From: a virus
Reading direction: 5' to 3' (one strand)
DNA: 41,072 nucleotides
Virus record (IMG/VR): IMGVR_UViG_3300009376_000034
Span: 1-41,072 of that record
Position numbers and translations under genes: made by a program. A model generated the notes under the pieces. That model was given only the letters and a program-made list of their open reading frames with translations, was not told the origin of the DNA and did not search any database. Of this stretch, positions 12,451 to 25,541 are shown in pieces; position 1 is the stretch's first letter, and each line of letters opens with the position of its first letter.

Positions 12451-13054
12451 TAATCCTCAATTCTGTTAATTCATTTTTAATGCCCAATGTTCCTTTAATA
12501 AAGCTATTGAAAGCTAAACTAATTCTAAGATTATCTCCTTGCTTTGGAGAAACCATATGATGTAGATGGGAAGGAAATATTACAACCTGCCCTGTTTCAA
12601 CAGGTACAAACCAACTACTAGAATTATATTCATTATACTTATCAGTATTTATTTGAATTTGATTATAATCATTTTTACTAAAATGAATCTTATCATGTTC
12701 TTTATCACCATCAAAATAAATAACTCCTGATAGATAAGAATTCGGATGGTTATGAATATGATGATAACCATTTGTTTTAGTATAGTTTAACCAAGACTGT
12801 GTTATATAACATTCAACCTTTTGGTTAGGACTAACTATCTTATCTATATAATCTTTTAAAATAACTTCTAATTCTTTTTTTAAATTTTTAAATGCTGCTT
12901 GTTCTAATATATAATTATCTTCACTAGAAGTATTACCCATATTAGGAATACATTCTATTTCACTATCCTTAACTAATTGTAATTCTTCTTTAGTAAATGC
13001 TCTATCAATATTAGTTTCATAAACAGGAGTAGGAAATAAATTATGTATTTTCAT
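12443..13054 (-). CDS. 2OG-Fe(II) oxygenase family protein
   Basis: A 203-aa protein starting MKIHNLFPTPVYETNI, typical of the phage/marine 2OG-Fe(II) oxygenase group 2OG-FeII_Oxy_5 (TIGR02466-like). The metal and cosubstrate region is seen in GYHHIHNHPNSYLSGVIYF and VVIFPSHLHHMVSP, then NLRISLAFNS (distal His and Arg). Such enzymes hydroxylate a substrate with 2-oxoglutarate and O2; the substrate here is unknown. It abuts terL by one base, so it is expressed with packaging genes. Confidence 0.8.
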   Translation of the reverse strand: MKIHNLFPTPVYETNIDRAFTKEELQLVKDSEIECIPNMGNTSSEDNYILEQAAFKNLKKELEVILKDYIDKIVSPNQKVECYITQSWLNYTKTNGYHHIHNHPNSYLSGVIYFDGDKEHDKIHFSKNDYNQIQINTDKYNEYNSSSWFVPVETGQVVIFPSHLHHMVSPKQGDNLRISLAFNSFIKGTLGIKNELTELRINV

Positions 13055-14637
13055 TAGTAACCAAACACAGGGTCAGCAGGTCTCCATTTTTTAATTTGAT
13101 TCATTTTCTCATAAGCAGTTTGACTTCTAGGTCTAGCCATGATTAAATATCTTAATGCATCATAAGCATGGTCTGATGCTTTAGTATCTACATCTTCAGG
13201 TTTGTTAGGGTCTGTAGGTATACCTTGTAATTCTCTAATAAGGTTAGGGCACGTTTTAAATATAATCATTCTAGGTCTACCCTTCTCATTTATTTTTAAT
13301 TTTTCATGTACTTGTATTTTACCTTGTATTCTATTCTTATCAGCTCTTCTAAGTTTATGTCCAGCTCTAGTTAAGACTTCTCCAACAGTTGGTCCTGTTG
13401 TTCCAGTTCTTGCCCAAGCTTGAACATCTAAAACTCCTCTAACAGAAAGCTTATCTTCTTTTTCATATTGAAAAATCTTCTTAGCTAAATCTTCTCCTGT
13501 TAAACCTTTTTGATATAGTTCTCTATAAATAATTAAGGTTTCATCTGTAGGGTCTACACAACCCCAAATAACAGCAGACTCTGATGCATAACCATAGTCA
13601 ATTCCTTTTAGTCTTTCCCAATGTTTAGGAAGAGTATAAGGAGCTACACAATGTTTATCATATTCAAATTCTGAAAATGCTGCACCTTCAGCAACATCCC
13701 AATTACCATCTAGGAGTTGTTTCTTTTGTACAGGAGGTAAGGATTCCAACATCTGTTGGTACTTACCATCTAAAGCTAAATAAGGATTATCATCTAATCT
13801 AGCTGGAATAAATTTTCTTGAAATCTTATCTTCACCTTTAAAGCTTTCATTAGGAGGTGCTGGGTCTAGATACCTTTTCTTAACCCAACTCCCTCCGACA
13901 CCTCCAGGGTTTGCTGTGCACCGAATGTAGCATTTTATTTTTTGATTAGTTGTTCTCAATCGTGACTGCAAATATTGAAGTGGGAATTCTGTTGGATACT
14001 GAGTTAGTTCGTCAATCCCTATCCAGGTATATGATTGACCTTGGTATCTATACACATCAGCATCTCTATCAAGATAACCGAACTCCAATGTTGCTCCTGA
14101 AGGAAATTTCCAAATCTTTTCTACTTCTCTAAACTTAGCACCAATGAATGCTTTAGGATAGAGTTCTCTAGATTTATCAATTAACTCTCGTAGCTCTGGC
14201 ATGGACTTTCTTAATAACAAAGCTCTATGTTCTTTAATGTGCATGAACCTTAATGGGTCAACAAGCATGGCAAAGGACTTACCACCACCTGCGGCTCCTC
14301 CATACAGAACATCCTGCTCTGGTGCAGCTAAGAATTCTGTCTGAGGACCTGTATTAGGTTTGAATACTATTCTATCTTTTTCTTCTTCTAAAAGGTCTTT
14401 AACTGACTTAGGTAAAGATTTGTAATGAGCTTCATCCATAACAGTACCAGTCTTACTTTTCTGATTGGTCTCAGCTTTATGGACAACAGCTAAAGCTTCT
14501 TTCTTAACCTTTAGTCTAGTTGTTTTATTTTCTAAATTTTTTCTTAGTCTTTGAATCTCTTTTTCTTTTTCCCTAACAGCTTTCCTTGAAGCTATCTTGG
14601 CTTTTTGTTCAAAGCTATAATTATATTGTCTCGTCAT
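13054..14637 (-). CDS. terL: Terminase large subunit
   Basis: A 527-aa packaging motor. A coiled-coil N-terminus (residues 1-60) precedes the ATPase, with Walker A GGAAGGGKS near 113-121 and Walker B YTWIGIDE near 203-210. The nuclease region contains GIDYGYASESAVIWGCVD, VRGVLDVQAW and a final acidic KASDHAYDALRY. It cuts and pumps concatemeric DNA into the procapsid through the portal. The start overlaps the upstream 89-aa gene by 17 bp. Confidence 0.95.
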   Translation of the reverse strand: MTRQYNYSFEQKAKIASRKAVREKEKEIQRLRKNLENKTTRLKVKKEALAVVHKAETNQKSKTGTVMDEAHYKSLPKSVKDLLEEEKDRIVFKPNTGPQTEFLAAPEQDVLYGGAAGGGKSFAMLVDPLRFMHIKEHRALLLRKSMPELRELIDKSRELYPKAFIGAKFREVEKIWKFPSGATLEFGYLDRDADVYRYQGQSYTWIGIDELTQYPTEFPLQYLQSRLRTTNQKIKCYIRCTANPGGVGGSWVKKRYLDPAPPNESFKGEDKISRKFIPARLDDNPYLALDGKYQQMLESLPPVQKKQLLDGNWDVAEGAAFSEFEYDKHCVAPYTLPKHWERLKGIDYGYASESAVIWGCVDPTDETLIIYRELYQKGLTGEDLAKKIFQYEKEDKLSVRGVLDVQAWARTGTTGPTVGEVLTRAGHKLRRADKNRIQGKIQVHEKLKINEKGRPRMIIFKTCPNLIRELQGIPTDPNKPEDVDTKASDHAYDALRYLIMARPRSQTAYEKMNQIKKWRPADPVFGY

Positions 14638-14890
14638 TTCTACTTAATAATCCTTTAGGTTTTTCTATATTATCTCTATCTATGATTTTCTTTAAACCCA
14701 TAGGGGATAACTTGCGACCAGTTTGATGTTCTAAAATCTCAACTGCTCCTCTTAAAGAGAAAGCTCCAGATTTAACACCATCCTTCATTTCTGATAATGC
14801 TGATATTTCTTTATCAACTTTCTCTAATGTTTTGTTATCCGCAGATAACTTATAACCAAAAGGTATAGTAGAACTATTCCTTCTTATCAT
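14621..14890 (-). CDS. Conserved small protein between terS and terL
   Basis: An 89-aa protein with SSTIPFGYKLSADNKTLEKV and SGAFSLRGAVEILEHQTGRK followed by LSPMGLKKII. The second half looks like a helix-turn-helix (SLRGAVEIL.. LSPMGLKKI). This family often lies beside terminase genes in marine phages. A DNA-binding accessory role in packaging is an inference. It overlaps both neighbours by 17 bp, so it is co-translated. Confidence 0.6.
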   Translation of the reverse strand: MIRRNSSTIPFGYKLSADNKTLEKVDKEISALSEMKDGVKSGAFSLRGAVEILEHQTGRKLSPMGLKKIIDRDNIEKPKGLLSRNDETI

Positions 14891-15320
14891 CTATTATTTC
14901 AACCTCTTCTGCTTCACCATCAATTAAAGTTTTCTTTTCAGGTAACAGAAAAATCCCACTTGTAGCAGTATGCATTACATCTAGCTTATCACGTTTGGCA
15001 ACACCCACTCTGTCTAATAAGGTTTGGGCTGCTTGAAGTTTAGCATTGACTTGTGGTATTGGGTCATCACTATTAAGTATCTCAACTAATTTCTGAGAAG
15101 CTTGTGGTGCTGACTTTGCTAAAATCTTTGTGGCGACATCTACAATTTCATCTTTCAAACTATTAATGACATTGTAGTATGAAGTCTCTTTATACCCTGC
15201 AATATTCAAAGCTTTGTTTATATCTCCTTTAGCTGATGTTGCAAGAACTGAAAGAAAGGTTTGTTGTTGTTCTGTCAATTTCCTTTTATTATCTAATGAT
15301 GGTAGAAAACTTGTACTCAT
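14874..15320 (-). CDS. Terminase small subunit-like protein
   Basis: A 148-aa protein. Residues about 12-60 (LTEQQQTFLSVLATSAKGDI, NKALNIAGYKETSYYNVINS) form the helix-turn-helix seen in small terminase subunits; a helical oligomerisation part follows (NAKLQAAQTLLDRVGVAKRD), then an acidic tail. It should recognise phage DNA and stimulate TerL. I start at the ATG at 15320, not at the GTG further upstream, because a strong promoter predicts transcription to begin at about 15321. The mRNA would be leaderless, which explains the missing SD. Confidence 0.75.
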   Translation of the reverse strand: MSTSFLPSLDNKRKLTEQQQTFLSVLATSAKGDINKALNIAGYKETSYYNVINSLKDEIVDVATKILAKSAPQASQKLVEILNSDDPIPQVNAKLQAAQTLLDRVGVAKRDKLDVMHTATSGIFLLPEKKTLIDGEAEEVEIIDDKKE

Positions 15321-15327
15321 ATAAATT

Positions 15328-15356
15328 ATTATAACAAGTTTACATCTAGTTGACAA
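15328..15356 (-). promoter_or_regulatory. Leftward late promoter PL1 (terS)
   Basis: Minus strand TTGTCA (15356-15351), 17-bp spacer and perfect TATAAT (15333-15328). The predicted start, near 15321, abuts the terS ATG. The 12-bp string TTGTCAACTAGA is repeated in PL2. Confidence 0.85.
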
Positions 15357-15385
15357 CACGATTTATAATTTATTTCTGGTAGACG

Positions 15386-15414
15386 TTGACAAATGTAAAT
15401 ATCGTGTGTATACT
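15386..15414 (+). promoter_or_regulatory. Main rightward early promoter PR
   Basis: Plus strand TTGACA (15386-15391), 17-bp spacer and TATACT (15409-15414); predicted start near 15421. It is back to back with PL1, the two -35 boxes being 29 bp apart. It would drive the whole early region from a leader of more than 500 nt. Confidence 0.85.
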
Positions 15415-15615
15415 AAGGTAACACCTCTCCAGGGGTTGAAGCATCTAAGAGACTCTCTGGGACAGTCCAGCAATATAGCTCAGTCTACAAAAGCAGGGCG
15501 AGACTATCTAGTTTACACCTAAACTACCTAAAAATGTATATGAAGTATATACATACCCCACACACCCCCCCATGCACCATATAGGGGTATCAAGTGATAT
15601 TGATAATCATTCTCA

Positions 15616-15644
15616 AATATATAAATACAACCTCTAGTTATCCC
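15616..15644 (-). promoter_or_regulatory. Degenerate leftward promoter copy
   Basis: Aligned with PL2 it keeps AACTAGA, GTTGTA and a good -10 (TATATT, 15621-15616) at a 17-bp spacing. The -35 is poor (GGGATA, 15644-15639). It looks like a diverged duplicate, perhaps kept as a binding site. Confidence 0.4.
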
Positions 15645-15656
15645 TAAATATCTCAA

Positions 15657-15685
15657 CCTATACTTGTACAACTTCTAGTTGACAA
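15657..15685 (-). promoter_or_regulatory. Leftward promoter PL2
   Basis: Minus strand TTGTCA (15685-15680), 17-bp spacer and TATAGG (15662-15657); predicted start near 15650. Its transcript would run across the PR leader in antisense and reach terS with a leader of about 330 nt. Confidence 0.6.
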
Positions 15686-15906: not shown

Positions 15907-15935
15907 TTAACATCAAATTGACAAAAAACTATGTT
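15907..15935 (+). promoter_or_regulatory. Candidate promoter of first early gene
   Basis: TTAACA (15907-15912), 17-bp spacer and TATGTT (15930-15935); predicted start near 15942. It favours the ATG at 15949 as start of the first gene, because the ATG at 15931 lies inside the -10. Confidence 0.45.
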
Positions 15936-25086: not shown

Positions 25087-25339
25087 TGATATTTATTTAA
25101 CTTCTCTTAAAGAGAATGCATATAAAAAAGAAATTGCTACTCTAAAAGAGGAGATTAAAAATTTAAAAGCTGATGTTAAATATGAACGAGAGTTAAGGGT
25201 TAATGGCACAGCTTATCATCCTACTGATTATCATAGTAGATTAAGAGAGATGATTAGTAAAGTTAGGAAAGAAAAAAAATTAACTGACTTGTTTGATATA
25301 GTTGATGAAGCACAGAAGAGATTAAGAGATGCTAACTAA
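25079..25339 (+). CDS. Coiled-coil early protein
   Basis: An 86-aa protein with a long heptad region (LKENAYKKEIATLKEEIKNL, KADVKYERELRVNG), then AYHPTDYHSRLREMI. I start at 25079, just after GGAG; the ATG at 25019 would add a stretch lying wholly within the previous gene. Probably a dimer; role unknown. Confidence 0.55.
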   Translation: MGDDIYLTSLKENAYKKEIATLKEEIKNLKADVKYERELRVNGTAYHPTDYHSRLREMISKVRKEKKLTDLFDIVDEAQKRLRDAN

Positions 25340-25541
25340 AAAACAATTAAAGTTATTTAAATTTTTACAGCATTACTTTAAAGATAATGAAGTGATGCCA
25401 ACATTTAATGAGATGATGCAACATATGAATGTCAAATCAAAGAGTGTTATATGGAATATGCTTGGGTATATTGAATGGAAAGGGTACATAAAAAGGATAC
25501 CTAATTATGCACGAGCAATTCAAATTATTAAATACAACTAG
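25329..25541 (+). CDS. LexA-type DNA-binding domain protein
   Basis: A 70-aa protein that matches only the winged-helix domain of LexA: LTKKQLKLFKFLQHYFKDNE, VMPTFNEMMQHMNVKSKSVI, GYIEWKGYIKRIPNYARAIQ. The PT..E....(K)SKS....L..(I/L)E.KGYI.R.PN.ARAI core is intact. The autoprotease/dimerisation domain is absent, so RecA-triggered cleavage is impossible. It would bind SOS-type boxes and compete with host LexA, or control phage promoters such as the site at 15840. Confidence 0.85.
   Translation: MLTKKQLKLFKFLQHYFKDNEVMPTFNEMMQHMNVKSKSVIWNMLGYIEWKGYIKRIPNYARAIQIIKYN

Follow-up and report, generated by a model that had tools for sequence, protein, structure and literature searches.

A conserved one-way array of three sites at the early/late junction of HTVC103P-type pelagiphages: a candidate terminase recognition region overlapping the late promoter

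The divergent junction and its promoters

The window, i.e., the whole stretch of 41,072 nucleotides that we analyzed, belongs to a pelagiphage of the HTVC103P type: it carries the terminase, portal, primase-helicase and DNA polymerase genes of the HTVC103P group, and its junction region matches those of the Pelagibacter phages HTVC104P, HTVC103P and HTVC115P. Phages of this type, an abundant group that infects SAR11, are widespread in the ocean, as are those of the HMO-2011 type. The morphogenesis and packaging genes of the two types are related (PMC8528129). In the literature that we searched, no promoter, packaging site or switch is described for the HTVC103P group. In the window, terS heads the leftward late genes, while the rightward early genes begin at about position 15931; these divergent operons have a late promoter (PL) and an early promoter (PR), respectively, and the array of sites described below lies in the intergenic region between them (Table 1). 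An element of about 500 bp that combines the late promoter, the early promoter and the three-site array is conserved in dozens of contigs, and the junction offers a definite place at which the control of late expression and of packaging in SAR11 phages can be tested.

Table 1. Features of the junction and the adjoining terminase genes, in window coordinates
Feature	Position	Strand	Details or basis
terL, terminase large subunit	13054..14637	-	PHROG 979, E 2.9e-63
ORF89, 89-aa helix-turn-helix protein overlapping the end of terS and the start of terL	14621..14890	-	candidate site reader
terS, terminase small subunit, first gene of the late operon	14874..15320	-	PHROG 2538
PL, late promoter	15328..15356	-	-35 TTGTCA (15351-15356), 17 nt, -10 TATAAT (15328-15333); promoter scan
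Half-copy of site 1, TGTAAACTTG, 11 bp downstream of it	15335-15344	-	present in most relatives
Site 1, TTGTCAACTAGA, holding the PL -35	15345..15356	-	exact match search
PR, rightward early promoter, back-to-back with PL	15386..15414	+	TTGACA-17-TATACT; promoter scan
Conserved early-leader boxes CTCTCCAGGGGTTGAAGCA / TCTGGGACAGTCCAGCAATATAGC / GCAGGGCGA	15425-15443 / 15456-15479 / 15493-15501	+	alignment
Site 2, TGTAAACTAGA, without a -10 downstream	15507..15518	-	exact in 62/66 relatives
AT palindrome TGTATATGAAGTATATACA, then C-rich tract	15535-15553, 15556-15571		alignment
Degenerate copy ("middle copy" of the initial annotation)	15633..15642	-	alignment rows L006, L011, L013, L021, L024, L026
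Site 3, TTGTCAACTAGA ("PL2" of the initial annotation)	15674..15685	-	exact in 45/66 relatives

Comparison with relatives supports PL as the sole leftward promoter at the junction, with conserved sigma-70-type -35 and -10 hexamers whose spacing lies within the 16-18 nt of such promoters. The relatives were gathered by similarity to terS, to a leader box or to the PL word, which builds some of the PL conservation into the larger set; the set selected by TerS similarity alone is free of this effect, and in it TTG[AT]CAACTAG lies upstream of terS in 80 of 80 loci. When both promoter words were required and any spacing of 14-23 nt was allowed, the spacing was 17 nt in all 70 unique relatives. The entire PL element is a single 29-bp word, TTGTCAACTAGNTGTAAACTTGTTATAAT, in 56 of 62 unique sequences, and this word was also found in 89 viral stretches. 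In 81 of 84 sequences a TATAAT precedes the terS ATG by 6 or 7 nt (7 nt in the window), and three others have TATACT at this place; given this proximity, transcription should begin at the start codon or right beside it, and the terS mRNA is predicted to be leaderless. PR is also preserved, with at least 11 of the 12 consensus bases (TTGACA, 16-17 nt, TATAAT or TATACT) in 62 of 62 relatives.

The initial annotation had instead proposed three related leftward promoters, namely PL (its PL1), PL2 and the middle copy, with antisense RNA from the latter two interfering with the early leader. The observation from which this proceeds is correct: the -35 regions of PL1 and PL2 are identical over 12 bp, and TTGTCAACTAGA occurs exactly at these two places and nowhere else in the window. 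Only PL1, however, retains a conserved -10. At site 3 the window has TATAGG, and no -10 at 16-18 nt is conserved in the 43 relatives compared, where the most frequent hexamer, GATAAT at 19 nt, is shared by just 7. At site 2 likewise no -10 is conserved across 70 relatives, the best hexamer at 15-19 nt matching merely one to three of the six -10 bases in 69 of them. The middle copy has no -35/-10 pair conserved in relatives and is itself not conserved across the group, being confined in the alignment to the subgroup of the window; the promoter scanner reports neither it nor PL2 in the window. As the other copies are devoid of a conserved -10, and as PL1 stands back-to-back with PR so that its transcript does not cover the leader, antisense transcription over the early leader is unsupported, and we consider three active leftward promoters to be highly improbable.

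A repeated, conserved and nearly unique word

The non-palindromic word TGTNAACTAG has three copies in the junction (15345, 15507 and 15674), all of them in the sense of terS, and none elsewhere in the window; in shuffled versions of the junction GTNAACTAG occurs with a mean of 0.03 copies and a maximum of one. The initial annotation had drawn attention to the shorter AACTAGA as the shared motif of the 15345, 15633 and 15674 copies. It is indeed present in all three (at 15633-15639 on the minus strand for the middle one) and also at 15507-15513 on the same strand; on its own it is unremarkable, with 17 occurrences in the window versus 11.5 expected. The trio conserved across relatives is 15345/15507/15674, i.e., the earlier list of copies had overlooked the second-best conserved one (15507) and used the subgroup-specific one (15633) in its place.

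Sites 2 and 3 played no part in the gathering of relatives. Among 66 unique relatives, site 2 is exact in 62 and has a single mismatch in the remaining 4, while site 3 is exact in 45 and has one or two mismatches in 21. By comparison, the 195 best matches in control windows taken from these sequences include no exact one and only two with one mismatch. It is this conservation, together with that in the 80 TerS-selected loci, that carries the case for the shared word. The distance between sites 1 and 2 is 159-182 bp in nearly all relatives and that between sites 2 and 3 is about 163-171 bp. The 29-bp PL word includes the half-copy 11 bp downstream of site 1; in six variants of the PL spacer this half-copy is gone and TTGTCAACTAGA is retained, indicating that the 11-12-bp word is the conserved unit.

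HTVC104P has exactly three copies of TGTNAACTAG, all in its junction, with none elsewhere in the genome outside an unread segment of 640 bp (50001-50640). HTVC115P, whose TerS is about 60% identical, has three in the junction and one elsewhere in the genome minus 1,404 unread bp; its form of the word is TGTTAACTAG, found three times. As a pure within-genome repeat the array is not extreme, since 8 of 129 background windows score equally high: the evidence for the array is its conservation and not within-genome repeat statistics. As far as sequence goes, the sites have the form of a pac or cosB array, in that they are repeated, essentially unique in the genome and adjoin terS.

Packaging, regulation or replication

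The reading that we prefer, albeit with somewhat less than even confidence, is that the array represents pac-like recognition sites for the terminase (TerS and/or ORF89), which overlap PL and serve in its autoregulation, as in phage SPP1. What points to packaging is that three near-unique, non-palindromic sites in the same orientation lie directly upstream of terS, and that there are again three in the junction of HTVC115P. Under this model, the junction would comprise one late promoter and a one-way array of three TTGTNAACTAG recognition words over about 340 bp, the most likely reader of which would be the terminase, in the form of TerS and/or the co-encoded helix-turn-helix (HTH) protein ORF89. 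Once bound by it, the three sites would designate where packaging begins on the DNA; since site 1 doubles as the PL -35, occupancy there would also repress this promoter of the terminase/late operon, shutting it down or throttling it. Late transcription would thereby be coupled to packaging, as the terminase does at the pac/PL1 region of SPP1. The sites with their orientation, conservation and near-uniqueness, the promoters PL and PR and the gene order are read directly from the sequence; the reader protein, the initiation of packaging, the cleavage position and the repression of PL are inferred.

The pac region of SPP1 shares DNA with the late promoters PL1/PL2 and with gene 1; pacL and pacR, on either side of the cut, are bound by TerS, and the terminase represses its own synthesis (PMC6316719). 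The pelagiphage junction similarly has a late promoter directly upstream of terS (the counterpart of SPP1 gene 1), and its candidate recognition region overlaps the terS promoter; on the packaging reading, sites on both sides of the cut and self-repression by the terminase would be further common traits. In contrast to SPP1, a single clear word recurs three times at intervals of about 165 bp as its candidate sites, the array spans a divergent early promoter and the terS mRNA is predicted to be leaderless. If the packaging reading is true, the pelagiphages would show the SPP1 pac/late-promoter design in a novel version. With the R sites of lambda cosB (PMC4856287) it shares the threefold occurrence of a recognition sequence in the (here candidate) terminase recognition region; it differs in that no cohesive-end site was found, in its larger spacing and in its TerS family, which by profile resembles the PaP3-type TerS (structures 7joq/6w7t, E 6.5e-8).

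A further comparison is afforded by the related Sinorhizobium phage phiM6, for which PhageTerm predicted a pac cut that was set as position 1 (PMC6256558). Here too a late operon led by terS is found at a divergent early/late junction with a one-way repeat, and the cut position lies 600 bp upstream of terS, within that junction. The 4 copies of the repeat, TTCAAGTTA, all lie on the terS-sense strand and flank the cut, and the remainder of the 68 kb has none; likewise, seven copies of TTCAAGT form two clusters on both sides of the cut. The choice of TTCAAGTTA was post hoc, and its score is statistically unexceptional, with 4 of 131 background windows scoring equally high. A repeat in the HMO-2011 junction was rejected, as it does not rise above background (23 of 221 windows). 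Unlike the pelagiphages, phiM6 has a different repeat word and a longer junction of about 2.5 kb.

The ends of viral contigs that bear PL (L088-L187) were also considered: 45 of 65 ends fall at most 900 bp away on the early side of PL, as against 9.4 expected, and none on the late side. As evidence for packaging this bias is only suggestive, since both packaging ends and a hypervariable early region could cause it. A sharp genome terminus was rejected on these data, in that the ends, though close to the junction, scatter over about 700 bp.

Besides the different word and post hoc choice of the phiM6 repeat, other observations speak against packaging. In HMO-2011, terS lies away from the junction. 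Further, site 1 coincides with the PL -35 throughout the relatives, and an operator would show likewise; for this reason a phage transcription regulator acting on an operator array explains the junction almost equally well, and we regard it as possible, if somewhat doubtful. Such a regulator would repress PL from site 1 (or, at its edge, activate it), and sites 2 and 3, inside the PR leader, would act as a road-block or loop that controls early transcription. In line with this, the half-copy of site 1 lies one helical turn downstream in most relatives, the PR transcript would include sites 2 and 3, at about +87 and +253, and no phage RNA polymerase was recognized among the proteins searched (a subset of the window ORFs), so that a switch acting on the host polymerase would be needed. 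Against it, the word is non-palindromic, each distal site is single, and the inter-site distances given above are not helically constant. The suggestion in the initial annotation of related copies that possibly share an operator stands insofar as the word is conserved in three one-way copies, one of them in the late promoter.

The operator reading also falls short in respect of a regulator. The obvious HTH regulator is a LexA-like protein (ORF 25329-25541; Pfam LexA_DNA_bind, E 4e-13), which the initial annotation had named as a reader; no homologue of it was detected in HTVC115P (searched minus 1,404 unread bp), which retains the sites. It is therefore an unlikely reader, and an operator for a LexA-like repressor was rejected, as the cognate repressor should accompany the conserved sites. 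Moreover, no other regulator common to the window, HTVC104P and HTVC115P was recognized among the proteins searched. A box for a host regulator or other host factor was rejected too: 1 Mb of a Pelagibacteraceae (SAR11) genome has 2 hits of the site word versus 9 of a reversed-pattern control. This lack of enrichment makes a phage protein the likely reader.

Returning to the terminase, the proteins common to the window, HTVC104P (minus 640 bp) and HTVC115P (minus 1,404 bp) include TerS and ORF89. The recognition-helix segment of TerS, placed by alignment, varies (SYYNV, ASYAV, SKSNV, SQSNV) while the word is constant, which weakens TerS as a base-specific reader. The HTH segment of ORF89, FSLRGAVEILEHQTGRKLS(A/P)MGLKKI, is nearly invariant in the phages that retain the word, in favour of the packaging reading with ORF89 as a candidate reader. 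In alignments, its counterparts are stand-alone proteins encoded between the two terminase genes of HMO-2011 and several CRP phages, and the N-terminal extension of TerL in CRP-3, CRP-212, CRP-235, CRP-738 and phiM6. Its predicted fold has three helices (mean pLDDT 78), with large serine integrases as the best Foldseek matches (probability 0.97, but a weak E of 0.11); the Pfam Recombinase model gives a weak hit in 2 of 12 members of the ORF89 family (best E 0.0066). These matches suggest that ORF89 may be related to the DNA-binding part of large serine recombinases. That the sites are read by this serine-recombinase-related HTH, fused to TerL in relatives, and not by the HTH of TerS seems to us unlikely; were it so, the packaging site would be chosen by a motor-borne domain of recombinase origin, whose contact with the sites would also govern the late promoter.

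Direct repeats in one orientation, AT-rich DNA and a conserved palindrome with a G/C tract are also what a replication origin might display, with the sites as initiator iterons and with PR transcription and the AT-rich and G/C-tract DNA helping to open the helix. In addition, the GC skew switches sign at the junction. The other turning point of the skew, however, is at a convergent gene junction, about 17 kb one way and 37 kb the other in HTVC104P (minus 640 bp); the skew thus tracks gene orientation rather than two equal replichores, and an origin deduced from it was rejected. Nor was an initiator recognized among the proteins searched, whose replication functions comprise a primase-helicase, a DNA polymerase and an SSB. 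We accordingly rate an origin as improbable.

Other elements of the early leader and junction

The leader boxes between 15425 and 15501 (CTCTCCAGGGG..GAAGCA, CTGGGNCAGTCCAGC and GCAGGGCGA) are strongly conserved and have no known match, including in Rfam. Pairing of the leader arms is only weakly better than that of swapped arms (218 of 5000 permutations are equally good) and the folding energy fails to beat shuffles in four of five sequences; with no Rfam match besides, a structured leader RNA was not accepted as a proven element.

The tract at 15556-15571 is conserved with either strand G-rich: it is C-rich in the window, G-rich in HTVC115P and mixed in two other relatives (L006, L013), and it could possibly form a quadruplex. 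A leftward intrinsic terminator at 15565-15536 was rejected, its T-run not being retained in most relatives. Further along, at 15600-15616, lies an imperfect palindrome, TTGATAATCATTCTCAA, which we take to resemble a Fur-type box; HTVC104P has TTAGAATCAATCTAA at the corresponding place. HTVC115P shows an apparent intrinsic terminator (AACCCTGCC..GGTGGGGTTTTTTT; L005:2900-3010) about 100 nt after PR, and its PR may therefore make a short RNA.

Finally, a leader box is found exactly in four genome contigs (L147-L150) filed under SAR86, Pelagibacteraceae, Flavobacteriales and Bacillota. Further elements of the junction are present in two of these (L147 and L149), and in the Pelagibacteraceae contig the site word occurs close by; at least three of them hence look like phage DNA that was binned with cells.
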